A stretch of DNA of 64,000 nucleotides from Mimachlamys varia. Lineage: Eukaryota > Mollusca > Bivalvia > Pectinida > Pectinidae. The stretch lies in assembly GCA_947623455.1 (NCBI GenBank), contig OX392536.1, positions 34,601,465 to 34,665,464 of the forward strand, given 5' to 3'. The notes beneath the pieces are model-generated. The model had not been told where the DNA came from, ran no database searches, and worked only from the letters and a program-made list of their open reading frames with translations. This document shows positions 32,650 through 62,694 of this stretch, one piece after another. A program made the position numbers and the translations under genes. Every line of letters starts with the position of its first letter. Position 1 is the first letter of the stretch.

Positions 32650-32856
32650 ATGATTTCCAAATGGATCCTGCTATTACTGATAGTGTCCAGTGTGGTCCTA
32701 CTAACCAGAGCCCAGATCAGTTTCTCGACGAGCTGGGGCAGCGGTAAACGTGCAGCTTACAACCCGCCCGTGAATCCTAAAAACATCAATCTAGACAGCA
32801 CGTGCATGAGCAGGACGGAACCGGAAGTTCTAATGGAACTCGTCAAAGCAATACAG
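32650..32856 (+). CDS. AKH: AKH coding exon 1
   Basis: 69 codons: signal peptide, decapeptide, GKR and the first part of the associated peptide through Cys52. It ends in phase 0 at CAG before GTAATT. The whole hormone lies in this exon, so alternative splicing downstream could only change the associated peptide. Confidence 0.93.
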
Positions 32857-35800: not shown

Positions 35801-38800
35801 GAGCTGGGTTGTTTTGATTTGTTGTTTTAGATTTGTTTCTGGATGGATAAGGGAGCGAGGTTGTTTTGATTTGTTGTTTTAGATTTGTTTCTGGATGGAT
35901 AAGGGAGCTGGGTTGTTTTGGTTTGTTGTTTTAGATTTGTTTCTGAGTGCATAAGGGAGCTGGGTTGTTTTGATTTGTTGTTTTAGATTTGTTTCTGGAT
36001 GGATAAGGGAGCTGGGTTGTTTTGATTTGTTGTTTTAGATTTATTCCTGAGTGCATAAGGGAGCTGGGTTGTTTTGGTTTGTTGTTTTAGATTTGTTTCT
36101 GAGTGCATAAGGGAGCTGGGTTGTTTTGATTTGTTGTTTTAGATTTGTTTCTGGATGGATAAGGGAGCTGGGTTGTTTTGATTTGTTGTTTTAGATTTGT
36201 TTCTGGATGGATAAGGGAGCGAGGTTGTTTTGATTTGTTGTTTTAGATTTGTTTTTGGGTGGATAAGGGAGCTGGGTTGTTTTGATTTGTTGTTTTAGAT
36301 TTGTTTTTGGGTGGATAAGGGAGCTGGGTTGTTTCACTGTACTGATATCACAGAAAATAAATCAAAACATAAAACAAGTAGTTTAATACTATCAAAAGAA
36401 AAAATGGGCACCAAGACCTTGGATTCTAAATATACAGTAATGATCATTGACAGTCGATATGAACGTGAATAGATTATCAAATCGACAGAACAAGTACAGG
36501 TTTTTATCACATCTTTTGGCACGGACACAATAAATCTTTTTTATATAAATGTTTATTTGGTTTTCATGACAACTTCATGTTTGCGCCTGGTATTTTAATT
36601 AATTGGCATATGTTCCCTCTTAAGGCACATCGTGAAAAACGAAAAACTATCCTTCCATAAATGAAATGGGACTTATGACAGTATACAATATACCACCTGC
36701 AGAAACAAACAATACATGTCTTGGGAACATGATGTCAAACATAAAACATAGTTTCCCCGAGGTTTGCTGGATCCTCCATAGCCACAGTTAATCTCATTTG
36801 AGTAGTGGCACGGTACACAATATACACATTGTCGTAGTACACGATTTGAAATTACACAGGACTAGTTTCATTTTACTTCTAAATTCATAAATTAAAGGGG
36901 TGTAACGCACCTGACTCTTCCGCTTCTAAATTAGTTTAGAAATTTGGATTCCCATCTTTTGCCCCCTAGCATCATGAAGAGTCCTAGGAGGACGAAACAG
37001 CTTTATTATACAGTTTAATTCATTTTTTGGCATACAGTGTACTGTATATATTACCAATTTAAAAGGTGCAGCATCATTGTGGGTAACGCCATATTTCACC
37101 GATTTAACAAAGGTATTCGAATATTAACTATACGATCCCGTACTAAGATATCATAAAATTGGAAAATGATTTTATACAATGATAACAGGCAATATATCAA
37201 CGAAACTAGTCTTTTCAATAAAATGATCTTTTTTGTACACCTTAAAACTATAATATATCGATTTAGCATGCTCTGTGTACTTTTTCTTTTTCTATAATCA
37301 AACTTTTTTGTATATAATATTTTATGTAGCTTATTATATACGAAATAGACTGTGCGTTTACTAGTCTGCATATCTATGACCATCAAACGTACAAGCAAAC
37401 ATCAGTGACACTGTAAGTAAGATGTGTACAACAAACAAGAATAATCTTACGATAAGACAAACTTACTACATTCTGCTTAGTTTTGTGGGGGTTTTTTTTT
37501 TTGTCATATTCAAAAACATGCAGGTTTACTGATATATGAGGTGCAATGTGACCATGTGATCGGTACATGTAACTAAATATTGTCTTACTGCAGATGTACA
37601 TATTTTAGCGATAATTTTGATTTAGCGCTTTTTACTGAAAACTTTCCCCTACTTTATGATTGCGCGTATTTCGACATGAGTTAAATGTTTTATATGGTTT
37701 CTGTGTTTGCGCCAATTTATCACTGCGCTAGTTGTTTAAATTCTGTTATGAGCCAAAATTAGTGTACGCCAAAATAAAGACCTGTACAGTGGTTTTTTCT
37801 AGTTTCTGTACTTTATAATAACATATATTTCTTTCATTTCAGAAACAAACCGAACGTGTTATAGAGTGCCTCATGGAATCCAAAACTGTAAAACAAAGGT
37901 AAAATGCTATGTACAAGGTATAACATAATTTACGTTTCTCTATTCACACGTTCTGCTTAATACTATCATAATATCATGCAGTTTCTTTGTAGATATTAGG
38001 CCCTACTTTCCTTATTGGTGTCTACTTGTTTTATCCTCAATTCATTTTATGTACATGTAACAGAGCGTTAAAAAGCTGTTTTATTTTAATTTTACTTAAC
38101 ATCGTTCCAACTTGAATAAAAAATATGAAATAAATGCACGAAAATGATAAATTGCTCGTTGTATGTAGTCAATGACAGCCATGCTGGTTTCATCAAGTAC
38201 CGACAATGACCGATAGCTGTATAAACACTATAATCTTACAATTAATCGATCTCCTTTTAAGCACTACATTGTAATGCCAAGGCAGTGATTGTGGCCTGTC
38301 ACGTCAGCACATTTTATTTCATCGTAAATTTGATCAAATCTACGTCCACAAGAACTGCCGTCTGTAAACAGGACTTATGGATTCCAACAAAGAGAATACT
38401 AGATTCTTAGCTAGGACAGATGTCTACGGCTCCGTGTGCCGTATACGCTGTCTTTACCAGGCAATATATAATGCTTATAGATTAAGTAGTAAGAAAGGGT
38501 TTACGGAACGTGTGATTTTGTTTTCTAAGAAAGGGATTTGTCGGTTTAGAAGCCCTACAGTAGTCTTTATATATCACAGAAGAAAGTAATCCACCAACAA
38601 TAAACCTGTTTATGTGTTCCTCTGTCTCGAACTGAGCCTGTGATGTTTAACAAACGATTGGCTTAAATGTTTTATCGAAGATGTTTTATCTTATCTATAA
38701 GAACTTAATAAAGTTTTTTGTTTGCTGATAAAACTAACCTTTTATTTAATACGAGGCACTGAGTACTGTTGTATATTACACTAGCAATACCAGTAGCTTA

Positions 38801-43509: not shown

Positions 43510-44035
43510 CGAGGCGTAAACAAACGCAATAATATCTGAACTCGATATGATAAAACTAGGCACAAAATATGAACAAAAGAAAGAAAGAATTACACAGAGA
43601 CCCTTGAGGGTGCACGAAAAAGACCAGAAATTATGGAAGTTTACGCGTCTTTTCCTTCATTGGAGACGCATGCCATGTTAATCTCGGTTTCATTCAAGTA
43701 AATGTCACCCCCTTAAACTGAGAACTGTGGCATTATTTTTTAATCAAAACAAATTGGAATACTTTGAGTATATTCAAAAACAAAAACGCCCGCCTTCTTG
43801 TCATGCTTACATAGAAAGTATTTATCAACCTACATAGTCTAAATCCCTGTTCCGTCAGCAGCTGACAAATATAACGAATACTTCGATAATTAGAGCAAGT
43901 CCTACATGTAAAACAATCAGAATCATTTGCGACGTGTAAATAATATAGATTGTTGAAACGGCAATGATACTATCAAGAAAGGGAAAGTTCATGATCGGAA
44001 AATCAAAATCGTCATGTTTGGTTCCTAGTGCCTTC
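43510..44035 (-). pseudogene. RT-element copy, minus strand, strongly decayed
   Basis: Tail remnants lie at 43550-43690 (reverse of GAGACGCATGCC...GGGTCTCTGTGTAATTC). RT C-terminal remnants lie at 43850-44030, with the CTATCAAGAAAGGGAAAGTT block that encodes the NFPFLDS equivalent. Confidence 0.6.
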
Positions 44036-45049
44036 GCAACACAACACGTTTGACCTTAGTGTTGAGCGTTGGCTAAGGAGGGTAGGCGATAGAGTAGTGC
44101 TTGAAATGATAAACCATTTCTTATTTAAGTGTTAAAGTGTTCGTTTCCGCTGGAAAACAGTTTCAAAGAGTATCATGGTAATTTTAAATAAATAGGTACA
44201 ATGTATGTATTGCTCCTCATAGTTAGTTTTAATTATCCTGGGAGAAATGAAATTCCGGCAGTGGAATTTCCCTATCTTACATCTTTGATCATGACAAGAG
44301 CATTTTTTCTCATTTTAACTACATGAATAACCTCAAAACCTTTATAGCATTTTGAAATTATCAAATTTTCCCTTGAGCTTTTTGACAAAAACGAATCAGG
44401 CATACCCCATATTTACAAACACAGATTGTGCAGAAAAATTAATCTCAGCTTTATAATGTTCATGATTAAAATATTTTGAAAGGTTTTTAATCTATCACGT
44501 CGCCATTTTCTCTTTTTTACTGTATTGACCAAGACAGGCCTGTATTTCAAATGAAGAAATTAGAGAAATACAGTATTTCCGTCAGTTGGAAAATCGTTTC
44601 AAGTCCCTGTGTTTGGTACCGGATGGAGGCTATATTAATTGAATGATTTCTCAGTTTCCTATAAACTGGCATATTTCAAACAAATAGCGCATTGCAGGAG
44701 ATATTTAATACGTACATGTATTTTATTTTGAACAACCAAGACTAAATCTCACTAAACCTCAGGACGAACATCTATATACATTTGTACATCCTAGTGGTCG
44801 TTTTCCGGGACCGACTGCTTCTGGGATGATCGAATAATTACCAGCTTTGATTTTAAATGGTCTTGACACGGCAACTAAAATGGTGTGCCAATGGACTCGA
44901 AGACTCTCCAAGTCTGGACCTCTGTATTTTTGACAGCCGGGGCACAAAGTTGATTACGTATTAATAAAACAAGCTTTGGTAAGATCTAAATTCAAGCGTA
45001 GATACAAGTTACAAGTCGCAGAAAAGCTCGTGAAGCTCTTTTGTTTATT
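44036..45049. other. Non-coding interval
   Basis: A 62-codon minus-strand ORF at 44759-44947 begins MCPGCQKYRGPDLESLRVHW. It has no matching splice context or known family, so I leave it uncalled. Confidence 0.4.
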
Positions 45050-45535
45050 TCACTTCTAAGTTTGCTCCCTGATGTCATAAGTTAAACTGTTAATCAGTGA
45101 AAAGTTACTAAATGTGACCTTGACCTTTTAACATGTGACCTTGATGTTTTTAATCATGACCAACTTTGCTTCATGATGTCATAACAAAATGTTTAGAAGT
45201 GAAAAGTTACAAAATGTGACCTTGACCTTTGACCTGGTGACATTGAATAAGCTCAGTTGACTCCTTGTTTCATTCTGATAAAATTTGCTTCAAAATGGCA
45301 AAATAAAATGTTTAAAAGTGGAAAGTAACAAAATTTGACCTTGACCTGTTTTTGTTGTTCTCGACTCAGTGCCTGACTTTTTGTCAATTCACTCATTGTT
45401 AAATTCTGATCAATTTTGCTTATTAATGTCATAGCACAAAGCACAAAATTTGACCTTGACTTTTGACCTATCTTTTCGACCTCAGTAGGTATCTTTGTAA
45501 ACTGAACCAAGTCAACGTTTCATGCAAATAGGTCA
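45050..45535. repeat. Degenerate repeat of about 100 bp with TGACCTTGACCTTT words
   Basis: Four to five diverged units carry GTGACCTTGACCTTT, CTTCATGATGTCATAA and AGTGAAAAGTTAC. They are spaced roughly 90-110 bp. Confidence 0.6.
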
Positions 45536-45539
45536 ATAA

Positions 45540-47076
45540 ATACTTGCTATCAGCCAGGAGCTGAATTTGTGGAGAGACAGAGTAATAATTATAGGGCACT
45601 CGTACCTATGATACGGCCCTTATCATGAAACTTGTCACAATTTCTTTGATTTGTTTCATCAATCTCGTATGAAATGGAAACATATGCAAGAACCTATCGG
45701 CTATTTACAATTTAGATATATTTGCCAGCTATGGTACCATAACAGATAAGTTAACCTTAGTTGGAAAAGATAGTTTTATTATACATCATGTATAAGGAGA
45801 TGCCATAAATAACAGATACAGAAACACAAGAAAGGTTCTCCACCAATGGAGAGGTACATGTAACATATGTCTCTACCACAAACAATGCATTCGATTGTCA
45901 CACCACATACCTGAAGTTTACTTATGATGATTCCAATGAATAAATTATCAATCAGCACACAGAAAAGAACACTAATATAATTGATAACAAATTGGTAGGA
46001 GAGCTAGAGTATGGATATTTGTTAACAGCGGTGGGTTTTTTTTAATTTGAAAAAAATAATGAAAATAAATTTAATTGCCAATCAACACATCAAATGATTC
46101 CAAAATATCATATGTATTTACATAAACTTCAAAAAATATATTTGGTGAATACTTGATTTTTCATTGAAGCATTAAACCGTTACCAAATCATTGAAATGGT
46201 AGTATACGGTCAATAAGAATACTATTTGGGTGACCGATAAATAGAATGTTGCCAGATTTTACAGTATGGGCATAACATGTTTGTTTTAAACTTAAAGTGT
46301 TATGAAAAGAAAATGACAAATGAGTATGCAGAGTGACATCAACAATGATATTAAATATCATGGCCTGTCATTCTCAGAGGCAATGTACCATTTATTAGGT
46401 GACACCCTATTCATATAATAATCTGGTATTTGTATAAAGATATTTTTAAATAGTTTAGCCATTTATAATGCACTATGCAATACATGACTGAAAGTACAGT
46501 GAAGAGGATTGTTCAAACCCTGTACTTGAATCACTTAACAATAAAAGTATTTTTACTTTTATATTCATCCTCTCCTATCACAGTAACAGTAAATCATTAA
46601 ACACTCGTACATATACACTTCCGTTAAACATTGTTTAACAAATCACTTGGCCACCTACAAAAGACGTAAAGGAGTATCTTTACTCCCTAATATATAACCT
46701 ACAGGCAAATGATTTTTAAGACTCATAGTTTAAGTCATCCGTTTAATCCATAGATGAAAGGACTTCACGCATATACAAAGAGGTACTTCTTATTATGTTT
46801 TTGCACTTTGTCAGTCTTAGAACCATGAAAAGCATCTATATTTTTCATAATTTACATCTCAAAATATGAACTGTACTTTTATACACTCCGATAATGTATA
46901 TTGTTATATCAGTTTTTTAAAGCAAAACCCAGGAAAAAACAATAAAACTAGACATTTTAAGGCTCCAGACAACAAATTCACTGTTTGTATCCATTGCTCT
47001 AGGCCCATGACTAACATTAAGTTTGATGATCTTCAATTTACACAACAAAAAGTTTTACAAAATCTTTTCGGAAAGT
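45540..47076. other. COX15 3' UTR and downstream region
   Basis: No other gene is seen. In COX15 orientation the first AATAAA is at 46396-46391 (TTTATT on the given strand). An ATTAAA variant is at about 46746-46741. Either could end the transcript. Confidence 0.4.
46391..46396 (-). terminator. Candidate COX15 polyadenylation signal
   Basis: AATAAA on the minus strand, about 680 nt past the stop. The distance is long but possible. An ATTAAA at 46746-46741 is closer. Confidence 0.35.
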
Positions 47077-47208
47077 TCACTTGGGCATCCTCTTAAGTTC
47101 ATGAGCCACCCAAATAGCAAAGCTGAGCAGGACCAAGGATCCTGATTGGTGGGTGGCAGCCAAGTGTGTTGGAACATACATCAGTAGAGTTGATATTCCC
47201 AGCGTGGC
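47077..47208 (-). CDS. COX15: COX15 exon 9 and stop
   Basis: Residues 368-410, [20 protein letters not shown] then the last membrane segment and a basic end (ELKRMPK), TGA at 47079-47077. His387 is present. Confidence 0.95.
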   Translation of the reverse strand, partial: ATLGISTLLMYVPTHLAATHQSGSLVLLSFAIWVAHELKRMPK

Positions 47209-50200
47209 CTATACAGAATAAATAAAATGTATATAATATTATACAAATCAATATTTGTGACAGGAAATAGATGGCTTCTACAAAACATGATCACTTTATT
47301 ATAAATAGCAATGTCAATTCAAAAGTATCACAGCCAATCTTTATGATTTATTTTAAAATTTTTAAATGACAATTTTGTTTTTTTAAGATTTTTATATTTT
47401 CAGGAGACATTTCTTTGTACAATACAAAATTAGGTTTTTAAAACAATAGTTTAGGAGAAGGTATATTCTCTTTATTAGATAATTTATTTTAATCTGTATG
47501 GTAAGCTATAGGGAACGTGTTTTATACCTGTACAAAAGCCATTCCAAGGAGACAGTTACATGCTAATCTAGCCCTCGGGGGAAGGGGTGCCTTCCTGCAC
47601 ATCCACCAGAAACCGCATATCACTAATACAGTACTCTCGGCCTGCACAAAATACAAACAAGCATCATTGTTCAGTAAAAATCAAAAGCGAAGGGGGGACA
47701 TAACTACCATAAAAGCAACAACTTTCACCAACTAAACGTAAAACTTGTTACCATCTTTAGACAAATTACGTATGAACAAAGATTAAACAATATCCAATAG
47801 GCTTTAAAAATAATCAAAAGCAAAGGGACATAACTCCTATTATAACATCAACTTCCACTAGCTAAAACTTGTTCACCATCTTTATAGACAAATTATGTAT
47901 GAACAAAGATTAAACAATATCCAATAGGCTTTAAAAATAATCAAAAGCAAAAGGTCATAACTTGTATTACTTGTTCATCAAGCAACAACAATATTAAATA
48001 GGCTTACCAGGTTTCTATGATCAAACTGGACAGTTGTTGGATTTTCAAAAAAGTTTTTCCATGTAGGAGAGATACTGAATAGGTCGGTCGGAATCCATCT
48101 GTCGGCCATCTTAGGCCATGTGTTGTACACCAGACCAGCATCTAGACCAGCTACAAAGGCCCCTGTTACAACAAAACAAAGCAGTGCTACTTCCTTATCT
48201 TGTAACCACATCCATGTTCTATTTGAAAAAAATTAATGACAGTTAAAATCAATTTTTATTAAATAATATGAAATCACACATTTAATGACCGTTAAAATCA
48301 ATGAACAAAGATTTTTATTTGATGGACATTTAATGAAATAGCCATATAACACTTGACAATCTTAATTATCCACCAGGTTATGTTCATTAATGTGTGTTAA
48401 ATATCATTAAGCCCACACAACTCCAAACACCCAGGTGGAGTATAAAATGGTCTAGGGTGGGTGTTACATTGTCTGTGCTGTAGCATGCAAGTGAGATGGC
48501 ACTCTAAAAGATGCCATTGGAACCACGGTCCCACTACAAACAGAACACAATTCATCTCCAGCACACACACATACATACACACACATATGGAGATATTAGT
48601 CAGGTGGTATAGGACAAGTAGTTAGCCCCTGATAAGGCAGCTCCTGCGAACTCCTCAGAATTGTATATGATAGAACTGTTTGTGTTAATTGCATTGATTG
48701 TAAGTGAATTGTATATCTATGTACTGTAAAGCGCTTTAGAGTGGCTTATGTAAGCTAGATAGGGCGCTATATCAAATGTTGTATATTGTTATTATTTTTA
48801 TTATTAATATTTAATGACGATTAATAAGAACTTATACAATGAACCCTAGACTGACATTAATTGATTTTAATATCCCTAATCATGTACAATTTTAATCTCA
48901 AATTAAATTGCAAAAAAAAATGGAATTTAATGAAATTTTGAAAACAAAATCAATAAAGTTTAAATGACACATTAAAATAATACAATGCATTAGTGATAGT
49001 ACAAATTTTAAGCTGTTGAATTGGACAAATTGAAACGTGTCTTCAGAGTAAATGAGCTAGTATCTCACCTGACAGGGCTGTTACAAAGACAGCAGCCATA
49101 ACACCATGTGACAAGCCTCTGAGTTTGGCAAATTGCTTCAGGTGGGTATCAGGTAACTATGGGAACAGAAAACACAGTAAATAACAAATATTGTTACAGT
49201 AATCTATACAGTTGAACCCCGTTATCTCAAAGACAACGGGACCGTGAACAAACTTCGAGTTAACCGAGTATTCAAGTTACACAAATTTGAGTGCTAGTGT
49301 AGTTTCATCAAGACAGAGGAAAAACTTCAAAGTAAACTGGGTTTTCAAGTTATATGAGTGTAAGATAACGGGGTTCTACTGAATCAACAAAAGCACCACA
49401 ATCAAACACCGTAACACGAAAAAGCAAAGCCTTTAAAGAGCATAATTTCAGTTAATCTCTGATTTTTACCGAGAATTATTCATAATGAAATTTACTGATT
49501 CAGAATGCGACGAGATTCCCATAATTTAAAGTCATCAAGTCAAATGAAAACATCTGAAGCACAAAAAGGAGATAATTGCAACAGACACCAGCTGAAAGAT
49601 ATTCCAGTTATTTTCAGCTATACTTAATTAACTGATAAAGGCTGAGTATGATGTAACTGTGTGACTTATTCTGGTTTGTACAATTAAAGGCAACGTGCAC
49701 GCGTGTAGACAAGGGAAGTTACTCTGTTTACACACGCATGTTTTAACATTCAAGACTTTTGCTCAGGATGGTGCCCGAGATCTACACTCTTGTTATCAAA
49801 ATAATTTTGATGTTTTAAAGCATACCTTGTTTTGAGGAAGGAGGTGTCCTAGGGCCTGGTACAGAAACAGAGAGTACAGCAGGAATGCTGAACCTAAATG
49901 GGAGGCCAGTCTGTACTGACTGACTCGTGGCATATCTGTAGACTTGGCCTGTTCCTCTAGTCCACTCTTCACCATATACCACCCCAGGAACCCCTGTATA
50001 AACACCAGCAATGGAACAGTTCAAACATTTCACCATATACCACCCCAGGAACCCCTGTATAAACACCAGCAATGGAACAGTTCAAATATTTCACCATATA
50101 CCACCACAGGAACCCCTGTATAAACACCAGCAATGCAACAGTTCAAATATTTCACCATATACCACCCCAGGAACCCCTGTATAAACACCAGCAATGCAAC

Positions 50201-53200
50201 ACTTCAAACATTTCACCATATACCACCACAGGAGCCCCTGTATAAACACCAGCAATGCAACACTTCAAACATTTCACCATATACCACCCCAGGAACCCCT
50301 GTATAAACACCAGCAATGCAACAGTTCAAACATTTCACCATATACCACCACAGGAACCCCTGTATAAACACCAACAATGCAACACTTCAAACATTTCACC
50401 ATATACCACCACAGGAACCCCTGTATAAACACCAGCAATGCAACACTTCAAACATTTCACCATATACCACCCCAGGAGCCCCTGTATAAACACCAGCAAT
50501 GCAACACTTCAAACATTTCACCATATACCATCCCAGGAACCCCTGTATGAACACCAGCAATGCAACACTTCAAACATTTCACCATATACCACCCCAGGAA
50601 CCCCTGTATAAACACCAGCAATGCAACACTTCAAACATTTCACCATATACCACCCCAGGAACCCCTGTATAAACACCAGCAATGCAACACTTCAAACATT
50701 TCACCATATACCACCCCAGGAACCCCTGTATAAACACCAGCAATGCAACAGTTCAAACATTTCACCATATACCACCCCAGGAACCCCTGTATAAACACCA
50801 GCAATGCAATACTTCAAACATTTCACCATATACCACCACAGGAACCCCTGTATAAACACCAGCAATGCAACACTTCAAACATTTCACCATATACCACCAC
50901 AGGAACCCCTGTATAAACACCAACAATGCAACACTTCAAACATTTCACCATATACCACCCCAGGAACCCCTGTATAAACACCAGCAATGCAACACTTCAA
51001 ACATTTCACCATCAACCACCACAGGAACCCCTGTATAAACACCAGCAATGCAACACTTCAAACATTTCACCATATACCACCCCAGGAACCCCTGTATGAA
51101 CACCAGCAATGCAACAGTTCAAACATTTCACCATATACCACCCCAGGAACCCCTGTATAAACACCAGCAATGCAACACTTCAAACATTTCACCATATACC
51201 ACCACAGGAACCCCTGTATGAACACCAGCAATGCAACACTTCAAACATTTCACCATATACCACCCCAGGAACCCCTGTATAAACACCAGCAATGCAACAG
51301 TTCAAAACATTATTTAATGTTTGCCAGCTGCAGGTCACATTTTTCTTTTGTGAACAGTACGTATACCAACATATTAGTGTTATCTGTACACCAGTTCATC
51401 ACAGTACAATAAAGAAATACAATCTTCTTTTCCGATATTTCTGTTCTAAGGTTGATCTCTGTTTAGAAATTAATTACACATACAATATTTTTCCTTAACG
51501 AAACAACATTATTATACCATGTACATTTGTTAGGCTCCAATTATTACCCCCTCCTGGTGACCTCCAATATAATAAATTGATAATACATGTATGATACATC
51601 ATGAAATACAGTGTCACAACTACTACAACAAGTCATTCAATATCACAACAACTTATTACCTGCTAATTGGGACCATCTAACCAATACTTATCATATTTTT
51701 TAATTCTATTTCATTAAAAGATAAAGCATTAGAATCCAGTCTATTGCAAATTTGAAATCAAGTTTTCTAGGAGTGTGTTGAGCTGGCTTAACCACAGGTA
51801 CCGGTCTTTTTTCACTGTTACTATGTTATTATGTGTAAATATTGAAGTTTTGATATCAATGAATGACTCAAAAATGCTTCACATTTGGGCTATCTTTGTT
51901 TGTCTCATTAATATTTTGCCATCGACAGTTATGTGGATTAAATGATGGGTATGGGAGCTGAAGGAATGACCAATCCAAAGGTAAAACCTTGATCTTATAC
52001 AACTGATTATTTACAGTCTGAGTTTGGCCTTTGCCTAATACTCCGACATTGTCCTTTCAATTATCTAAAAGCAAATGACTTACAACAAGTACTTGAAAGC
52101 TAGCTAATTAGGACTGCTATAGTTTTTTACCCTGTCTAGATCCGACCTTGACCCCACAAAACAAACCCAGGCATCTACCTGGAACCTACAATGTATATGA
52201 GTTTTATATATTTGACCCTGTCTAGATCCGACCTTGACCCCACAAAACAAACCCAGGCATCTACCTGGAACCTACAATGTATATGAGTTTTATATATTTG
52301 ACCCTGTCTAGACTCGACCTTGACCCCACAAAACAAACCCAGGCACCTACCTGGAACCTACAATGTATATGAGTTTTATATATTTGACCCTGTCTAGATT
52401 CGATTGACTCCCCAAATCAAACCCAGGCACCTACCTGGAAGCCTATGAGAGCTGTATAGATGGCCAGTCTTGGTTTTAAGGCCTTTGACACCCAACCCTT
52501 CTTGAGAAAGTAGGCAGCTGGCAGGAGGAAGGTTAGCCCTACCAGGCGACCCCACATACGGTGGGCATACTCCATGTAGAAAATAAACTTAAAGTCGGAC
52601 AGAGTCATGTCGTTGTGCTTGTTCACACTGAAAGGAATCAATTAATTTTATTTTCCCTCATTGTTGATGTATGTCAAGGAATTGACAAATGAATATAATA
52701 TTGCTGAAGTATTTCAGACTTTTAAAAGAATTTAAGAAGGTTACCACATTTCAAAAAAAAATGAGCATTTAAAGTGCTTCTTTTACACAAACATTGTTAC
52801 AGTGACATTTAAACATTAAATATCACGTATGTACACATTTTATTTCACAACTGGGTGATTGCCTTTTACACAAATATCCACAAAAATATCTGAGTGCTTA
52901 TATTTGACCAAACAACTGAATAAAATCTGAGTGTTGTTTGATCAAACAACTGAATATCTACTTACTATTTGTACTCAGGAAATTGTTTGTATCGTTCAAA
53001 CTCTGCCACCCATTCTTCCTGACTCCTAGGAGGCTTCATATCTTTGAAGAGTTTCCAGTCTACCATGGACAGACCTGACTCTGTCAGTCTGTGAATTAAA
53101 ATAAAAAAAAAAACATGGGAAATAAATAAAGTATCCTGTTTCATTTGACATACAAAGTCAAAAGTAATGTTATACCACAGTTTCAGTTCCAGACAAGGAA

Positions 53201-55292
53201 TTATTTTAAAACAGCTGCCATCAAAGACACAAAACAGTCAGTATGCATCAATACATGTAGATGCACTGTTTGGAGGTCTCAGGATAGTCAACATGGCACA
53301 GGATAGTTATGGATGGCATTAAGTATTCAAACACTACTTACTTATTTTTTATACTAGAAAACTTGAGGTTGAAGGCAATCTAAACCTCTTAATGGCATGA
53401 ACAGCCCACAAATATGCTACATTGTAAGCAATGACTATATTTATGTTTAGACCTACGGTATATTAAACAATATTTACATTTCTAGTGAACTTGGACTCAA
53501 TATACCTAGTGTTTGAAGGTTATTTTTCTATTAACTTTCCAGTTGGCGTATAAATATATCAGTACATTAGTGCATAAATTATTCCCTTTTTCCAAAATGT
53601 TTACAATCTGGGTTTTGATTCAGTTTTCAGATCAAATAACCAAGTTTGTGTTGTACAATTTTATTGTTGTTTTCAATACAAAAACAGCTATGAATTTCAT
53701 CGGAATGACGTCACACAGTGAATGATGACATCACATGTCTTGGCATCTTCCGCTGCATAGACTTGTACGAGCCCAATATTTTAGAAATAACCACAGAATA
53801 CCAAAATCAACCTGAATGTAAATATAAGGATTGTCTAGAGACAAGTTTGATATACTGCTTCGCAGTTCATTAAATTTGTCTCAAGACCAATGAGGTTTAT
53901 ACCCCATAAACCTCAACAGAACAGGATTCAATCCTTAAATATGCAACCACAATGCCACAAATATGGGTAAGAGTGCATATCATACCCTCTATGTTTAGAG
54001 TTTTCATATTTCAAGGCAAATTTACTCACTGAAGATATATATGAACCTACATTATGTACAACATTTAATTCTTGTTTTTAGACATATCTGACAAATATAG
54101 GCGAAATACATGGAGTTTCCAGTTAACAAGTCCTTACTGATCTTAAAATTATACTTTTCTTGAGCCAATGAAACACTAACCTTGTAACTCCACCGAGCAC
54201 GACAGCCCCGAACACCATCCCAGAGCATCCTACCAACCACCAGCCAATAGCTTTCTGGGTGTATGCCGGGAGGGCGGGTGCTGATGTTTGAGTAGCCGAT
54301 TTTCTTATTATCGGCAAAAACCGTCGGGATTGGCCAGTTATCTGTTAATGTAATACAGTATATGTACTTATAGAAATATCAACATAATAAAGAAACTATA
54401 AGGGCTTAGTCTTAAATATTCCATAATTATAATCATGTATGGGAGATGGGAGGCACCTGTATTAATATGTCATGGGTGGTGGGGCCCGCACACTTTTCCT
54501 TATATTAAATCTCTTTTAATATTTGATGGGTGGTGATGGTCTCTAAAAACGAGCCTCTCACATGAGTAAATGGACAGTACCAAAATTAAACTTTCTCAAC
54601 AAAACATTAATCAAATACATTCAACACATAAAAAAGATCAACAAATATTTAGAAAGAGAGCTATATATAGACCGTTGAAAAAAGAAGCAAACCATGAATA
54701 ATGGTATTGTACCTCTGTTATGCAACAAGACAAATATTTCTCTACATTTCTTGCAAAAATTGTATAAACTGTAAATCTGGAATGGTGACCCTCCCCCACT
54801 TAAAAAAAGCTTGGTCTGCCCCTGTGACATATTTAACAAAAAGCTTGGTCTGCCCCTGTGAAGTTAAACAAAAAGCTGGGTCTGCCCCTGTGACGTTAAA
54901 CAAAAAGCTGGGTCTGCCCATGTGACATTTAATAAAAAGCTGGGTCTCCCCCTGTGGCATTAACAAAAAGCAGGGTCTAAACCTGTGGCATTTAATAAAA
55001 AACTAGATCTTCCACTGTGACATTTAACAAAAAGCTGGGTCTGCCACTGTAACATATTTAACAAAAAGCTGAGTCTGCCACTGTGACATATTTAACAAAA
55101 AGCTGGGTCTGTCCCTGTGACATATTTAACAAAAAGCTTGGTCTAGTTTACCACCAGTACGTAACAACAATTAGTACTGTTTGACATACTTACATTTTTG
55201 ACTGTTGATCGTAATGGGCCTGCCATTCTTATCATGGAATGAAAATTCCTTTGGTTGGCAGAGTTGAGACATGAAAATAACTGTGGCAGCAT
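47077..55292 (-). CDS. COX15: COX15, mitochondrial heme A synthase, 9 exons
   Basis: Inner-membrane enzyme that oxidises the C8 methyl of heme O to the formyl of heme A, needed for cytochrome c oxidase assembly. Coding exons in order: 55292-55194, 54341-54181, 53088-52966, 52627-52435, 49993-49826, 49156-49069, 48162-48008, 47641-47528, 47208-47077. They sum to 1,233 nt, that is 410 residues plus stop, the human length. All introns are GT-AG and every phase joins. Residues 1-33 and beyond form a basic presequence. Landmarks: [18 protein letters not shown] (82-99), [13 protein letters not shown] (146-158), [12 protein letters not shown] (217-228), GLDAGLVYN (283-291), VQFDHR (322-327), AATHQSGS (384-391). 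Conserved histidines are His150, His224, His265, His326 and His387, those of the two four-helix halves of the CtaA/COX15 fold. About eight hydrophobic segments are visible. Looks functional. Confidence 0.97.
47528..47641 (-). CDS. COX15: COX15 exon 8
   Basis: Residues 330-367, two hydrophobic stretches separated by [11 protein letters not shown], as in the human loop before the seventh segment. Both ends are phase 0. Donor GTATAA. Confidence 0.93.
48008..48162 (-). CDS. COX15: COX15 exon 7
   Basis: Residues 279-329. It holds [35 protein letters not shown] (His326) and ends at Leu329, phase 0. Donor GTAAGC. Confidence 0.97.
48411..48800 (+). mobile_element. SINE in COX15 intron 6, 5'-truncated
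   Basis: Same body as 56030-56425: CACAACTCCAAACACCCAGG, GGGTGGGTGTTAC, GATGCCATTGGAACCACGGT. The 3' end is CTGTAAAGCGCTTTAGAGTG and GGCGCTATATCAAATG with an ATT tail. The tRNA-like head is missing. Confidence 0.75.
49069..49156 (-). CDS. COX15: COX15 exon 6
   Basis: Residues 249-277 plus one base of Gly278, [20 protein letters not shown] onward, with His265. Donor GTGAGA, acceptor CATAG. Confidence 0.95.
49209..49381. mobile_element. Short inverted-repeat element (Tigger/pogo-like MITE) in COX15 intron 5
   Basis: The ends CAGTTGAACCCCGTTATC and (reversed) CAGTAGAACCCCGTTATC form an inverted repeat of about 18 bp. The left flank is TA; the right flank is AA. The CAGT-GAACCCC start is typical of pogo/Tigger-type elements. 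173 bp, no coding capacity. Confidence 0.65.
49826..49993 (-). CDS. COX15: COX15 exon 5
   Basis: Residues 193-248, [15 protein letters not shown] to LLPQNK, with His224. Its first 26 nt are part of the 61-bp tandem unit that fills the adjacent intron. Real donor GTATGC. Confidence 0.96.
49970..51305 (-). repeat. 61-bp array built on the COX15 intron 4 acceptor and exon 5 start
   Basis: 22 units start every 61 bp from 49970 to 51251 with no length change. Each unit contains, in COX15 orientation, about 35 bp of intron end (GTTTATACAG) and the first 26 nt of exon 5 (GGGTTCCTGGGGTGGTATAT then GGTGAA). Only the unit next to exon 5 continues into real exon. Units differ by scattered substitutions (CCCC/CACA, CAACACTT/CAACAGTT). 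Confidence 0.96.
51306..52129. other. COX15 intron 4, unique central part
   Basis: Separates the two arrays. No coding or RNA feature is seen. Confidence 0.6.
52130..52445 (-). repeat. 86-bp array containing the COX15 intron 4 donor
   Basis: Four units start at 52130, 52216, 52302 and 52388. In COX15 orientation each holds TTCCAG followed by GTAGRTGCCTGGGTTTG, the same as the exon 4 end and donor. The unit at 52388 supplies the true donor; the other three carry GTAGAT or GTAGGT copies further into the intron. Confidence 0.9.
52435..52627 (-). CDS. COX15: COX15 exon 4
   Basis: Residues 129-192, including [10 protein letters not shown] (His150) and the second membrane segment. It ends GGC TTC CAG in phase 0 before GTAGGT. 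The exon edge sits next to the 86-bp array. Confidence 0.96.
52966..53088 (-). CDS. COX15: COX15 exon 3
   Basis: Residues 88-127, [20 protein letters not shown] onward, the conserved intermembrane segment. Donor GTAAGT after two bases of Tyr128. Confidence 0.96.
54181..54341 (-). CDS. COX15: COX15 exon 2
   Basis: Residues 34-86 plus two bases of Arg87. It carries the end of the N-terminal extension and the first membrane segment (about 66-84), with GGVTR at the boundary. Donor GTTAGT. Confidence 0.95.
54800..55146. repeat. 32-34-bp minisatellite in COX15 intron 1
   Basis: About 11 units of AAAAAGCTGGGTCTGCCCCT followed by GTGACATATTTAAC, lengths 31-35 bp. Not in frame with any exon. Confidence 0.9.
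55194..55292 (-). CDS. COX15: COX15 exon 1 (presequence)
   Basis: 33 codons from ATG at 55292-55290, rich in Arg/Lys/Ser/Asn and lacking acidic residues, as expected of a mitochondrial targeting sequence. A T-rich tract and TTTCAG end six bases before the ATG, so a non-coding 5' exon probably lies further upstream. Donor GTAAGT, phase 0. Confidence 0.85.
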
Positions 55293-55344
55293 ATTGTTCT
55301 GAAACAAAATAAACCAGTTTAATTAGTCTCTTTATTTTATTTTT

Positions 55345-55530
55345 GGGCCGCAGTGATGTGTTCATTCCACCACTAACGTAGCCCTCCACCTCGAGCTCTG
55401 GGCTGCAAGTTTGAAACCCGCGTGGGGCAGTTGCCAGATACCACCTTGGTTTGTGTTTTTCTCCAGGTACTCCAGCTTTCCTCCACCTCCAAAACCTGGC
55501 ACATCCTTAAATGACCAGGTTTCAGGTTTT
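55345..55530 (+). mobile_element. SINE copy, related to 13095-13326
   Basis: The head begins GGGCCGCAGTGATGTGTTCA; box B-like GCAAGTTTGAAACCC; then CGTGGGGCAGTTGCCAGATA, TTTCCTCCACCTCCAAAACC and CCTTAAATGACCAGG. The expected GGCTGTTAATAGGA tail is replaced by the MITE end at 55527-55560. Confidence 0.65.
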
Positions 55531-55560
55531 GCCGAAAGTTACGTATGATTGGGCCTTTAA
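55527..55560. mobile_element. Solo end of the TTAA MITE family
   Basis: GCCGAAAGTTACGTATGATT, then GGGCCTTTAA, matches the inverted end at 13680-13710 in reverse, ending at TTAA 55557-55560. No partner end is found nearby. Confidence 0.6.
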
Positions 55561-56029
55561 AGGAAGAAAAGTGTAATGCTAACAGCTACAGTTAGAAAGG
55601 AGGGAGGGCATTCCACAGAGGTTTTGGTCACTGAAAGAAGCTTTTTTTTCTTATAGAGGTTTTAAAAGTGAGTGTTTCAAAGAAAAGTTATTGGGAATGT
55701 CTTGATTTGTGATGTAATGGGAAAAGAGATAAGATCTGTGGATCAAACAGCTACTAAAAGTATGTGTTCTTTTATTGTTTTGTATACACTTTAATACATG
55801 TAACTGATCATGAGACAAGAATGACAATGCGAGTCAGCTGCGAGCTAGGCTAAGCCAGTATGTCGCTCACCCTGAGAATATAATTCCTAGCCATGTCAAT
55901 ACATTGATTAGCAATAGACTGTCACAGCCCAGCATTGAACTAAATTTTCCACTTTGGTCAATATCTTTCTTAAAATGTGGATCCCCGACTACTCTGTCTT
56001 ATTCTCATTCTGGACTGACCATTAAAGGC

Positions 56030-56425
56030 AACATGGGCAGATTGGTCGAGTGTTTAACACTCGGGCCTTCCATGCAGGCAGCCGTGGTTCGATCCCCATA
56101 ATCGTCATACGCATTATGGAACATTCAGATTAAGTGTTTTTCTCCATGCAACAGCCCAGGTTGAGTACAAAATGGTCTGGGGTGGGTGTTGCAGTATCTG
56201 TGCTGTAGCATTCAAGTGAGGTGACACTATAAAAGATGCCGTTGGAAACACAGTCCCACTACAAACAGAACACAATTCATCTACAGCACACATACACATA
56301 CTTTGTATATGATAGAACAGTATGTGTTAATTGTATTGATTGTATTACAAATTGTATATCTATGTTCTGTAAAGCGTGACTTATTTTAGCTAGATAGGAT
56401 GCTATTTAAAATGTTGCATATTACT
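56030..56425 (+). mobile_element. tRNA-derived SINE, near full length
   Basis: The head is GGGCAGATTGGTCGAGTG (box A region), and CAGCCGTGGTTCGATCCCCA contains a good box B, GGTTCGATCCC. The body has GGGGTGGGTGTTGCAG and AGATGCCGTTGGAAACAC. The end is CTGTAAAGCGTGAC...TAGATAGGATGC followed by an ATT-rich tail. Same family as 6886-7345 (-) and 48411-48800 (+). Confidence 0.8.
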
Positions 56426-56429
56426 ATTA

Positions 56430-57165
56430 TTATTAACCTTTTTAAGCTTTGAATATATGTTTCTCAGAACATTTCTTTACAAAATTGATTTTCATATATA
56501 CATGTATACTTGTGTAATAGTATACAGGAATAGTGATACATATTAGAGCCATTACTAGGACTCACAACCAAGGCATGCTGTAGTTAATTATATAACTAAT
56601 CCACATCTTTTGCACTATTAATTCAGCCCTTTCTTCCAACATCAACCCAGGTTTTCCGACTACCTGTCAAGGGCAAGGGTTCTCCTAATCATAATCTTCT
56701 ACCTTAGGGACCCCATTGGAAATAAGCCATTAAGGCTTTATGGGCTATCCTAATTAAGTGAAAGGAAGGATGAAGTCAAAATCTGTGGTTTTACCATCTG
56801 TGATATTTTAAAAGCAGATTCAATTGTCCATCCAAAGATTGCCTCATTTTATGTATTTAATTGTTGCCTTTTACCTGAATAAATATTATTATTAATACCT
56901 TGATAAGGGAGGGTCATTGACACCAATTTAAAGTAGGATGAGGAAAAAGTTATTCAAACTAGTGTCATTGCTGATGCTAAAACCATGACCCTTGATTCTG
57001 CAGCCTGATGTTCTGAGCTAAACGGTAATAGCCAACAGCTAATGCTTGTACATGTATTACCAAGTAGATGCATTTTTGGATGACAACATATCACTTACAG
57101 CTGTAAATCATTTGCAATATAGTATATGTAAAAGATGTGCATTGATAGGCAAGCTGTTGAGAAAT
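56430..57165. other. Non-coding interval
   Basis: Nothing supported is seen. Confidence 0.4.
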
Positions 57166-57610
57166 TCCTTTCTAATAGCTCAGCATTTGGTGTAGAGCAT
57201 TGGCCAGAGGCCTAGGGCCAACTTATACAATGTAATTAAGGATTGCAGTCCTAGCCCAACAATGTTAGAGGTTTAACATGGCGAGATACTTTTTGACGAC
57301 AAAATCATACCCGTTAGAAAAACGACTGATTCGCAGTCTCTTATAATGTTATAGTACTTTGAGTCCCACTGACAGCATTAGCTATCTTTATTAATTTCCA
57401 TGTCCTGTTACAAACAGGTGCTGTTCAGACCCTCTCACCATCAAGGAAGGAGATCTAGAATACTTGCCTAAAGATGGAATAGTGTAAAAGATGTGTATTG
57501 ATTAAGTTGATTGCCTTACAAGCATGAGCTGTAGGGAATTTCCCTTTAGCACAGCAGTACTAGAGCATCAGAACGGAGAGCCAAGGGTCGCAGGTTTGAG
57601 ACCAGGGGAT
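57165..57610 (+). mobile_element. Two diverged tRNA-derived SINE heads
   Basis: The first, near 57165-57230, has AATAGCTCAGCATTTGGTGTA. The second, near 57530-57605, has TTTAGCACAGCAGTACTAGA and box B-like GGTTTGAGACC. Both are preceded by AGATGTGTATTGAT-like sequence, suggesting two copies of one family in the same orientation. Confidence 0.5.
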
Positions 57611-57779
57611 GGCATTATATCTTTATCACTTTTCCTCATTATATTGCAGCACATATTTAACAGGAGAGGGAAAAAGGCATGGCCAGACCATGGTTAAAAC
57701 GTGGTACCTTCCAAACTCTTAGACAGACATATGCATTATAACAATCGACTTCGAAGACACCAGGGGATGCTATTGAGCA

Positions 57780-58260
57780 CAATTTTACCATTGCGATAGT
57801 ATACAATTGCGATAGTTAGAATTATTACTATGATAGTATTGCAATATCAACAAACAATTTTGATAATATTGCGATAGTCATTGATACCCAAAATATTTTA
57901 AACAAGAATTACACGTAATTATATGTGTCACCTTTCCCGCTTTGTTGGAGGCGACACAATACACCAAATTTGAATGAAATCGGACATTATCTGAATTTTG
58001 ACCAATCAGAGGACAATAAATAGATGCCATTTCGCTGCATCATGAAACAAAAATTGCGATAGTGTTCCTAGAGTCATAATTATAACCTATATAACTGATT
58101 GAAATTGGACAATGTTGAAATTTTGACCAGTCAGTGGCAAAAAAATGGTGTTTTGGGTATATTGGCTGGGTGCCAAATGTACTTTTCTCTTGCCCATGGA
58201 ACACCATAATATCTGGTTTAGGGCCAGAGCGCATAACCATATGAAAACGTGGAATTTACT
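57780..58260. repeat. Diverged duplication with TTTTGACCARTCAG
   Basis: Blocks at about 57965-58045 and 58095-58180 share GAAAT.GGACA, TTTTGACCA.TCAG and AAA.GATG words at a spacing of about 127 bp. GCGATAGT runs precede them. Non-coding. Confidence 0.45.
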
Positions 58261-59870
58261 GATACCAAACACAAGTGACTTATTAACAAAGAGATGCGGT
58301 CCGGAAATCTTCTGAACAAGAATAGTTAATCCTCCATTAAAATTCCGAACTGATCAGTACTCATGTTTGCTGATTAGTCACCCCATGGCCTACTTATATA
58401 ATTACGAGATCAAAACATGGTGACTGCCTAGGTTGGAAATTTCAAATTGTTGAAAACCTCAGAGGACTGATCTACTGACAGATATAAGCAGAGCTTCAGC
58501 TGATTTTGTATTGACATGGGTCATTGGGCCCATCTAGCCAAGAAAGTGGGGTCATTTTCCAAAATCATGGGCCAGTATTGTTATGCCTGTATGCATGATA
58601 GATAAAGACAAATTCTTTAACCTTACTTGAGTTTCATATCTTTTTTTTTTATTTTCCTTTAATTCACTCTAAACCACATAAGATAGTCCTTTTTCAAACC
58701 TCCACAAATGCATGCACACAGTACAGACCTTGCAAAGTAAAAACTTCACCAGCTTTGACCCACTCAAACATACATTTTGTGTTCACATATATATATACAG
58801 TACATTTAAATTCTTAATACATGTAGGTCTCTGATGGAAGACCCGCCCGTTTATAATTAGCTGTGGCTATATAATTCTGAACACTACTGGATCTTTCAGT
58901 CAGCTGTATGAGTGGGACTGCAGATGAGTGCAAGGACAGCTAACTTAAGTGAAATTTGGAAATTTCTCTCTGTGAAATTAATGGAAAATACAGAATTTTA
59001 TTATATAAATTAATATTGGCCGACAGACTAGTGAAATAAACTATAACTAAATTCATGAGGTTTTCCAATAAATCAACTGGCTTAAAATCATAGTTAAGTA
59101 CTGGTTGACAGGTACTGCATTTCGAGGCCCCAAAACACGGCTGGTATCGGCAAAATGGCTACAACTTTCAATCAAAATAATTGTGACATGGACACTACAA
59201 CACAATTCTGATACTGTAATATTAGTAATATATTGCTTTTGATTTGTTAATGCACAGACTGTTCTCATTCAAAACTCAATATAGTTTACCATTTAATTAA
59301 CACCAAACAAGCTGACCCATATCGTTATTGTCGTAACTGGGTTGATTGATCAAGAGCTAAAACAAAATGATATAAATTAATAAAAGCAAACGGGCATTCC
59401 ACTAGATATCTTTCTTAAATAAGAGGTATTAACTTGTCTGTTCTTTTCTTTTGACAATAAATTTGACAAGTTATGACTTTTTCTTGCAACACATGCTTTG
59501 GGTTGTGTTATCTTACAGAATGGAAATAAGCTTGAGGACGCAAATTACTTTCGTTTAAGCATATATTTGCCTTGTACCGGCAGACCCATGTGGAAACAAT
59601 GTCGTGCTCTGTATTCATAATTTATGCAGGATTAATGCAGGCGCACCGTCAATCAGAAGCCCTGAATAAGGAGCTGTTAGTAATTATCAGAGCAGGTTTT
59701 GGTCAATAAATAAACAATTTATCTATATATAAATGTGAGGTATATGTTGTGTCATAGTCAAATTTTATTGTCAGCACTTCAAAACTTTCAGCCACCAAAC
59801 GGTGTCTGATAATAAATTCCACAGGAATGTGCTCTGGCCCCACACTAGACATCTATCTTTAAAAATGTCT
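58261..59870. other. Non-coding interval
   Basis: No supported feature is seen. Confidence 0.4.
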
Positions 59871-59874
59871 GTCT

Positions 59875-60005
59875 GTGTTGTGGCCAGACCGGGAATCGAA
59901 CCCAGTACTCCACATGGTAGCATAGGCGAGTGTTCAACTTTTGAGCAAAAAGTCCAAACGTTATAGGCTCGAGGGCGTAAAGCTGCCTAATTCTACCACA
60001 CTCCT
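59875..60005 (-). mobile_element. tRNA-derived SINE, second family
   Basis: On the minus strand: GCCCTCGAGCCTATAACGTT, ACTTTTTGCTCAAAAGTTGA (box A region) and GTACTGGGTTCGATTCCCGG (box B GGTTCGATTCC). The copy at 61490-61618 has the same order. Confidence 0.7.
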
Positions 60006-60179
60006 TCTAATCTAAATGTTGAGGTCCTTTTTTTCTCTCTTCAAGATCATACCCATTTCGACCTATGTTAGCTACACGTGTACATGTACCACACATCATT
60101 CGAAATGACAGTGATCCTTGTGTCGCAGTGTTCAAACTCTTCTATAGTTTGACCTGTATTAATATTATTTAATCTGATA

Positions 60180-60480
60180 GAAGTACTTGCGCTGTGTATC
60201 ATGTTTTGTCTTTACATGTCCCTGTGTCAATGTATATTGTACCCGTGTATAAAGTTGTTATTGTGACGTATGAGAGGTGAGCACAAGGACTGGTTGAGAG
60301 TGTCACTTTGACCCTGCATGACCCTATACTCGTGCACGTGGAAAACCTCGCCTGGGCCCGGCCCAGGTGAGTATGACCCACAACACATTTAGACCCCGCA
60401 CAGAATAGATCGTCATACATATACGGAATCAGCCTGTGCGCTTTACGGCCACAGTGCTATTTGAAGGTAAGCAAATTTAA
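60180..60480. promoter_or_regulatory. GC-richer island with CRE-like and E-box words, possible promoter or first exon
   Basis: About 60290-60460 is markedly richer in G+C than its surroundings. It contains TGACGTA (60264-60270), CACGTG, GGGCCCGGCCC, and donor-like CCAGGTGAGTATG and TTGAAGGTAAGC on the plus strand. It could be a promoter or first exon of a gene leaving the window, or of COX15 from the other strand. No coding sequence confirms either. Confidence 0.25.
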
Positions 60481-61489
60481 TTATAATAAAAGTATTTAAC
60501 TAATGTAGTTAATCTATTTAAACCATTTATTAGAGATTCTTTATATATGGTTAATTTAATATAATTATATTTAAATACCTGGTCCACACTGTTGAAATAT
60601 CTAACAGCGGACATATACACGTGGTCAGGTCAAAGTGAGGATAGAAGTAATGTAAATGTCATAATGTAAATTGTAATAAGTCTTACATGTAACTTGAAAT
60701 GAAATAGAATTTAATATATAAAATATACCTGTTAATGTTTAATACTTTATGGTTTTAAATATTTTAATTAAAGGCATTGGTTACACGTGTCCGTCCATAT
60801 ATTGTCAGGTAGTGTTCTTTTTATTTCAGGTTGCTGTCTTCGTTACGTGTTTTTATGTGTCCTAAATAAATGTTGATCTAATCTATACAACGTGTTGGAA
60901 CATAATTAATGCTTAAGGACTCACACAACTAAATAATTTACTATATGTTATTACTAAGCTTTAGAGCTAATAACTTTAATATTTGAAGTTCAACACTAGT
61001 GACAACTGCCTGGATTCACAGATACATACATGGCAAAGACTTCAAATGACATTTTATCAGAAGTTTCGTGGCATTTTAGCTCGCTACGGGCGTCTGCTTC
61101 GGACAACTGGAAATTTACATATCAAACCAGTGAAAGGGGACGGGAACACCCTCTGACTTTTGACCCCATATCAATCCGCCATCACATATCAAAATCTACC
61201 AAAAGTATACATTTTTGTAAAGTTAAATATCTATAGATTTCATTCAATGCAGAATATGTCAACAATTACCTATTTAGATTATTCAGAATCACTGTACTTA
61301 GCCGGAACAAATTTTCGGTAGGGACTACAAACGTATGAAACACTTCGTGATAGGCTGATTTAGTTGTGTGATTCCTTAAGAAGAAACCCATTTATATATT
61401 CATCGTGTGACACTTGCATTAGGCAAGGACAGTCATCACCAGATGGGACAGGAAAATATGTTTGCTTTTTTCTTGTAATTGGGATGCCA

Positions 61490-61618
61490 TTGTTGTGACC
61501 GACCGTGAATTGAACCTGGGACTCCCGCTTGGTAGGCGAGCGTTCTAACCACTGAGCCAAAAGTCCGAACGTTAGACTCGAGGGCCTAACACCTTATAAT
61601 TCTACCACATATGGTGAT
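61490..61618 (-). mobile_element. tRNA-derived SINE, second family, well kept head
   Basis: On the minus strand: TTTTGGCTCAGTGGTTAGAA (box A TGGCTCAGTGG), CGCTCGCCTACCAAGCGGGA anticodon-arm region, and CCAGGTTCAATTC (box B). It is clearly tRNA-like, but the 3' part of the acceptor stem does not pair, so it is not a functional tRNA gene. Confidence 0.75.
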
Positions 61619-61619
61619 T

Positions 61620-62480
61620 ATTGCCAGAGAAAACTAAGGCTAGGTTCAAACTTTGGGCCTTCAAAACTCCAGATGGACACTATAACTTTCGAACAGGTCT
61701 AGATTATTAAAAATATTTACGTAATTAATAAATTTTGTTTTCCTTCATACTGAATAATTAATTTACATAACTCCAATTTTCTTCAAAATGAAATTATTTT
61801 GTTTACTACGGTTTGTTTTCAAAGCAGATCAAAGCAACAGTGATCTCGATTGAACAACTTGAATTCTATAAATAAAATTAATAAAATCTTATCCCATTTT
61901 TTTAGTTTTCCTGAACGCATCAGCTTACAAAAGTTCTTTGGCTTTTCCGCATGCAGAGGTGAACAGGTGAATGTCAACTGCAACATTTTTCACGAAACAA
62001 GAAAAACTTACCATCATTGGTCTATATGTTCTAGATCGAATGACACTTCTCCCTGAAAACAAAGCTCGGTGAAAGGCACAAATAGTTGACATCTTGTTAA
62101 TCAGTCGCAAACAGGTTTATTCTGTTGCAAAACAATCGGTTTTGTAACATGCCGTACTGAACCTTAAAATGTGGTCGTGAAATTATTGCAGAAAAAAAAT
62201 GCGCTATTCTATGTAATACACAAGGTGCGTAACCTGTTCGTGTTATACCGGAAATAAACTTTATATTTCAAAAATAAAACAGATCCGACAGAGAATTTCC
62301 GGAATAGTACCATCTTGGCTATCTAGAGATTCCTTGTATAAATGTTTTTCAAATAAGGAATATGCTAGATATGGCGAAGTCTTCATTTTAAATGCAAATT
62401 TTCATTACAGATGCTTTATTAAAAACAGAGATTACTGTATTTCTTTTATATTAAATATCGAGATGTTCGAAGATGTGTGC
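61620..62480. other. Non-coding interval
   Basis: Nothing supported is seen. Confidence 0.4.
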
Positions 62481-62486
62481 TAAAAT

Positions 62487-62684
62487 CACAGGGGCTAGGC
62501 GCGGACCTATGTCATTATGAAATGATTGTCAGATATTTTTGTTTTACCTTTCTCGAATATAGCTCCTCCAACTACTATATATCTGTCACAAATATATAGT
62601 AGTGGGAGGAGCTATATTAGAGAAAGTTAAGAAAAAATTTGACAATCATTTCATAGTTACATAGGTCCGTGCCTAGCCCCTGTG
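62487..62684. mobile_element. Foldback/palindromic element, 198 bp
   Basis: Two arms of about 95 bp are inverted copies: CACAGGGGCTAGGCGCGGAC at the left, and CACAGGGGCTAGGCACGGAC when the right is reversed. The centre has AGCTCCTCCAACTACTATAT and its reverse. TAAAAT flanks both sides (62481 and about 62687). It could form a long hairpin RNA. A half copy is at 43270-43390. Confidence 0.85.
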
Positions 62685-62694
62685 GATAAAATGG

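Follow-up and report, generated by a model that had tools for sequence, protein, structure and literature searches.

The window, a stretch of 64,000 nucleotides from Mimachlamys varia, carries on its minus strand a COX15 gene of 10 exons whose joined frame of 439 amino acids is intact. A 410-aa part of the product matches PF02628 over the cut-off (371.8 bits, E 3.3e-111) and is 93% identical to COX15 of Mizuhopecten yessoensis in a gap-free alignment. No second copy or retrocopy was found in the genome, all nine of the nine matches (the best candidates scored) lying at this locus. The gene and the two tandem arrays of its fifth intron are arranged as follows (positions in the window).

62012..62092, minus strand: COX15 exon 1 (27 codons; found by tblastn with the M. 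yessoensis N-terminus and by the joined frame)
55194..55298, minus strand: COX15 exon 2
54181..54341, minus strand: COX15 exon 3
52966..53088, minus strand: COX15 exon 4
52435..52627, minus strand: COX15 exon 5 (exon 4 of the initial annotation), with the real donor at its low end
52125..52445, minus strand: donor array, 86 bp x 3.7 (TRF and reading of the junctions)
49994..52434, minus strand: COX15 intron 5, 2441 nt
49968..51311, minus strand: acceptor array, 61 bp x 22 (TRF and unit anchoring)
49826..49993, minus strand: COX15 exon 6 (exon 5 of the initial annotation), 168 nt, with the real acceptor at its high end
49069..49156, minus strand: COX15 exon 7
48008..48162, minus strand: COX15 exon 8
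47528..47641, minus strand: COX15 exon 9
47074..47208, minus strand: COX15 exon 10, containing the stop codon

Two arrays in one COX15 intron

The acceptor array had been described in the initial annotation as 22 indel-free units of exactly 61 bp, and TRF agrees with this (period 61, 22.0 copies, 0% indels and a score of 2469 over 49968-51311). Each unit is made of the last 35 nt of the intron and the first 26 nt of COX15 exon 6. The acceptor and the 26 exonic nucleotides are therefore copied as had been said, although the junction is that of intron 5 with exon 6 and not that of intron 4 with exon 5, because an additional upstream exon (62092-62012) was found. With the units anchored at 49993+61n (n from 0 to 21), the real acceptor is that of unit 0 (49968-50028) and units 1 to 21 are decoys. 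Mean identity to the consensus is 97.5%; 19 of the 22 units read TTTATACAG and the other three TTCATACAG, and no clear higher-order structure was found among them. The motif TACAGGG (the acceptor TACAG|GGG) is kept in every unit, real one included, so that the 21 decoy 3' splice sites announced for this intron are indeed present.

As tandem arrays are generally error-prone in assemblies, the copy number might have been inflated or collapsed. However, the M. varia assembly xbMimVari1.1 was built from 44x HiFi reads, according to its report (PMC11252643), and the whole array spans just 1.34 kb, which makes an artefact unlikely. Substitutions specific to single units and the similar arrays at other loci (see below) also speak against it, and we consider this explanation highly improbable. 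The same report gives a second haplotype assembly, GCA_947622925.1.

The opposite end of intron 5 is multiplied as well, by an array (52125-52445) that was absent from the initial annotation. The junction TTCCAG|GTAG occurs there four times, with the first intron bases at 52434 (the real donor, CAG|GTAGGT), 52350, 52264 and 52178, so that this single intron contains 4 donors and 22 acceptors. On a consensus matrix, the first decoy donor equals the real one (10.99) and the other two score 6.22 each. A common origin of the 61-bp and 86-bp units was considered and discarded, there being no evident resemblance by eye. Neither unit was found elsewhere in the genome among the best-scoring candidates, both arrays being at the COX15 locus only. 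When the five arrays of COX15 were placed at random, following rules of our choice that allowed at most 26 coding nt to be covered per array, two splice sites were touched in 1.1% of 20,000 trials and two arrays fell on sites of the same intron in 0.2% (both post hoc). The latter figure leaves room for a local cause behind the presence of both arrays in intron 5.

Possible competition between equivalent splice sites

According to the same matrix, 18 of the 21 decoy acceptors score as high as the real one and the remaining three slightly higher. Furthermore, the nearest decoy, unit 1, is letter for letter the same as unit 0 from -32 to +26. Differences at the branch point or the pyrimidine tract were considered as a mark of the real site and rejected: the C at -26 and the C at -21 occur in both units, so these bases do not separate them. 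Since the two units are identical over this stretch, whatever discriminates between them must lie outside it, in line with the initial proposal that the last acceptor is marked by something beyond the unit. As for a repeat under selection to hide the decoys by its RNA structure or by binding protein, nothing was found in its favour. The fold of a 221-nt stretch is less stable than those of its shuffles (z +2.12; 199 of 200 shuffles at least as stable) and an Rfam search of 44000-64000 gave no match over the gathering score. We have thus discarded masking by RNA structure, and a selected masking structure appears extremely improbable.

Every decoy product would carry a premature stop. Twenty of the 21 (n=2 to 21) lead to a stop after 46-48 codons, and the decoy n=1 shifts the frame and, with normal splicing of the following exon, runs into a stop after 78 codons. 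The initial annotation had supposed that multiples of three units restore the frame, but each of the 21 decoys ends in a stop. At the other end of the intron, read-through from exon 5 into the donor copies stops after five codons.

Which acceptor should be expected to win can be approached from the section on equal-strength acceptors in PMC9225289, in which long flanking introns significantly reduce the preference for the upstream site, with no statement in that section that the preference is reversed. The same source describes a preference for the closest sites across the exon in the presence of long flanking introns, with a transition to exon definition at 200-250 nt, and COX15 introns 5 (2441 nt) and 6 (669 nt) both exceed this range. 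We would therefore expect splicing mainly at the exon-proximal acceptor with some leak. As upstream preference is reported there as reduced and not as reversed, substantial decoy use in COX15 is possible, and this counts against a simple reading of the arrays as silent.

If the decoys were used appreciably, premature stops would make the copy number a heritable dial that lowers COX15 output. Several observations are consistent with this: the match of the decoys to the real acceptor, the early stop of all decoy products, the reduced upstream preference under exon definition in the section cited above and the intact TACAGGG of all 21 decoys, where 3.2 changes were expected (P(0)=0.04, a post hoc value that ignores concerted evolution). 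Against it stand the cost of such a device in an essential gene for which a single copy was found, the RT-PCR data on similar structures in amphioxus, which are reported in PMC3087553 not to disturb regular splicing, and the recurrence of like structures in unrelated genes, which speaks against a function specific to COX15. A dial special to this gene, as initially suggested, is thus unsupported, exon-edge arrays being found in unrelated genes and in amphioxus, and tuning of COX15 by the number of units is, judged from DNA, unlikely.

Exon-edge arrays elsewhere in the genome

Tandem arrays are abundant in M. varia. In a random sample of 20 stretches of 10 kb (200,000 bases) they occupy 71,047 bases, about a third, with 58 arrays of which 22 have at least 10 copies, and the 64-kb window contains 15 that make up 14% of its bases. 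Small samples of the genome yielded six further arrays at exon edges, three at donors (P450, ARF and LDLa) and three at acceptors (SLC25, SRCR and MPND-like). A minisatellite-rich genome with several such arrays is a point in favour of a minisatellite origin for those of COX15.

Four of the six (ARF, LDLa, SRCR and MPND-like) come from the random sample, two of them from one 10-kb stretch. To obtain them, the peptides at the edges of 69 arrays (197 in all, from the window and 20 random loci) were judged by eye with no blind control, and the junctions were then read, so that four is no unbiased count and some may have been missed. The ARF donor array (L028; Pfam E 2.5e-17) has 3.1 copies of 28 bp and only one of two decoys intact; that decoys are not always intact is a point against the mirage-type reading given below. 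The LDLa donor array has a 34-bp unit (Pfam E 6e-4, under the curated cut-off) and the SRCR acceptor array has 2.4 copies of 165 bp (E 5.6e-5, also under the cut-off); both lie in L030 and their exons possibly belong to one gene. The largest array (L033), with a 50-bp unit, reaches the edge of the stretch read and has at least 181 copies, real one included, with CAG intact in 181 of 181. A Pfam search with its exon gave no match; we take the exon to be MPND-like from 14 of 33 residues identical to a piece of human MPND. An array beside an F-box/WD40-like exon (L025) was not counted, because it starts about 6 nt within the intron. An AGGT signature common to all junctions was also discarded, as the acceptors read AG|GG in COX15, AG|CC in SRCR and AG|AG in the MPND-like exon.

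The other two arrays were found in a survey anchored on exons, which covered 44 of the 103 listed P450 matches (88 ends in 40 regions) and 11 of the 86 listed SLC25 matches (22 ends), with 18 listed ABC matches set aside; not all match ends are true exon ends. Two of these 110 ends (a P450 donor and an SLC25 acceptor) lie within an array that includes the junction, three are beside an array without clear exon sequence (L047, L051 on the acceptor side, and L061) and the other 105 have no array within 15 nt. The same test recovered both COX15 arrays as a positive control. The SLC25 acceptor array, with a 46-bp unit and at least 3.6 copies, runs to the edge of the stretch read. The P450 donor array has 21.4 copies of 38 bp, with 11 exonic nt and 18 exact occurrences of GGTAGGTATT, real one included. 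Its real donor is AAG|GTAGGT and 14 of its 17 decoys are CAG|GTAGGT, which is closer to the donor consensus. The decoys being nearer to consensus than the real donor, splice-site strength does not seem to be what marks the real site.

If the random sample were representative, four exon-edge arrays in 200 kb would correspond to some 20,000 in the genome, with a large error. The probability of at least four is 0.03 when 1.1 are expected (an assumed value, roughly estimated from gene counts) and 0.14 when 2 are expected, and thus no bias of array birth toward splice junctions is demonstrated.

A probable mirage-type origin and related systems

Minisatellite-like duplications of intron-exon boundaries are known from the amphioxus globins BflGb6 and BflGb9 (PMC3087553) as mirages, a name that comes from amphioxus Adh3 (Canestro 2002, via PMC3087553). 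As described in that paper, they are found at 5' or 3' boundaries, have units of 10 to 160 bp and show length instability; RT-PCR data suggest that they do not interfere with regular splicing, and it is proposed that new introns could arise from them. The COX15 arrays resemble these mirages in having tandem boundary-spanning units at acceptor or donor ends, with splice signals retained in many units and the real exon whole. In COX15 the repeats are head-to-tail and of minisatellite length (22 copies of 61 bp and 3.7 of 86 bp), the units span the boundary (35 intron and 26 exon nt in one case, donor TTCCAG|GTAG in the other) and the authentic exon is complete at one end (439-aa frame, aligned without gaps at 93% identity to M. 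yessoensis). From these anatomical features, as read in the genome, they would classify as mirage-type. They differ from the amphioxus mirages, as these are presented there, in copy number (22, about 21 and 181 in M. varia versus 3-6 in BflGb6) and in that M. varia is a mollusc with one intron multiplied at both ends. Our literature search found no title or abstract naming mirages in a mollusc. Within the literature searched, the occurrence in a mollusc, the copy numbers above the globin cases, the involvement of both intron ends and the recurrence in a random sample are new.

The COX15 arrays are probably mirage-type minisatellites that were born across a splice junction and are tolerated through a preference for exon-proximal sites. 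A 61-bp segment over the intron 5/exon 6 junction would have been duplicated in tandem and then grown to an array of 22 copies, with an independent 86-bp duplication expanding likewise at the donor of the same intron. In the anatomy of such a junction-spanning duplication the exon is complete and all extra sites are on the intron side; as it is always the innermost copy that is continuous with the rest of the exon, the original exon is preserved. The spliceosome would pair the exon-proximal acceptor and donor, which define the shortest exon for U2AF/U2-U1 communication, and in this way the arrays would be tolerated. The decoys would be mostly silent, and any leaky use would feed nonsense-mediated decay. 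A point against this mirage reading is that the RT-PCR support (PMC3087553) comes from another phylum and from a globin gene with 3 and 6 units, and not 22 or 181.

M. varia could have thousands of mirages, some with hundreds of equally good sites, which a strict exon-proximal rule would ignore, and the remaining leak would turn array copy number into a heritable dial on the output of many genes, COX15 among them; we hold this broader scenario to be rather doubtful. The debate on how one of several equal splice sites is chosen has relied in part on constructs in which sites compete. The duplicated-site assays of Reed and Maniatis (as summarized in PMC9225289) likewise had sites competing in cis, whereas here the competition is natural and involves 22 or 181 near-identical competitors. 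As these differ mainly by position, the 4 donors and 22 acceptors of an essential gene and the 181 acceptors of another could offer a natural test case and a direct test of splice-site competition, and public RNA-seq of M. varia could answer which site wins. Should such arrays prove as frequent as in the small sample, they would have to be considered in scallops when genes are annotated and when allelic variation and the evolution of introns are studied.

The arrays could also be seeds of intron gain or of new exons, with a decoy pair being recruited as a new exon or intron, the Rogers-type tandem duplication that has been put forward for mirages. The coexistence of donor and acceptor copies within one intron is in keeping with this, as are the model outlined in PMC3087553 and the cases of UBC and of human introns embedded in tandem repeats that are described in PMC10809524. 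However, the acceptor unit offers only a weak donor-like site (the best, ATG|GTGAAA, scores 3.77 versus 10.99 for the real donor on the consensus matrix) and a product that reads on meets a stop in a third unit, and we judge such a role quite improbable. Internal tandem repeats at exon-intron boundaries, minisatellites as here, are also reported for human segmental-duplication genes; these (PMC2812944) are recent paralogs with novel introns in their transcripts, whereas COX15 is conserved and a single copy of it was found. UBC and COX15 are alike in their many equivalent tandem splice sites, but the UBC units, as described, are coding ubiquitin monomers spliced stochastically and the COX15 acceptor units are intronic and frame-breaking. 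A dual-specific array of the UBC type, in which one AGGT site works as both 5' and 3' splice site between in-frame coding units, was rejected for the acceptor side, where the unit reads CAG|GGG, its 61 bp cannot be divided by 3 and the third unit closes the frame. It was rejected also for the donor copies, in which CAG|GT is present but the short read-through described above reaches its stop.

Multiplied splice sites in COX15 and elsewhere

In the COX15 intron that carries the acceptor array, we observed that the donor is also multiplied, in four copies of an 86-bp unit. This array and those in other stretches of the same genome (L-numbers, with positions counted within each stretch) are as follows.

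Exon-edge arrays
window 52125-52445, second COX15 exon-edge array (donor)
L033 1-9032 (G000:C17:35000001-35010000), MPND-like acceptor array
L051+L078 (G000:C2:9332326-9334792), P450 exon donor array
L088 252-417, SLC25 acceptor array
L028 9778-9863, ARF donor array
L030 3147-3467, LDLa donor array
L030 4718-5109, SRCR acceptor array

The L033 unit comprises the acceptor of an MPND-like exon together with ∼24 nt of that exon. The stretch read contains 181 copies, in every one of which the CAG is kept; the total may exceed 181 because the array starts right at the boundary of that stretch. In the P450 exon, a 38-bp unit with 11 exonic nt provides ∼21 copies of the donor, the decoy at position 872 includes a longer stretch of the exon end, and a short array (25-bp unit) lies ahead of the acceptor.

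Other features of the window

Large minisatellites
2452-3664, 21-bp x 57
7720-9761, 58-bp x 37
16405-18278, 27-bp x 70
35500-36334, 52-bp x 16

As judged by eye, one mobile-element-like ORF, reading YGVYMSQLIRYSRAC and variants, recurs as fragments on both strands; two of its pieces gave no match in Pfam.

Mobile-element-like ORF fragments (by eye)
5796-6053, plus strand
20004-20414, plus strand
23863-24159, plus strand
25510-25959, minus strand

Furthermore, an adipokinetic-hormone-like precursor matches Pfam PF06377 (E 1.4e-5), and its predicted peptide is QISFSTSWGSGKR.

32650-32856 (end approximate), plus strand, adipokinetic-hormone-like precursor
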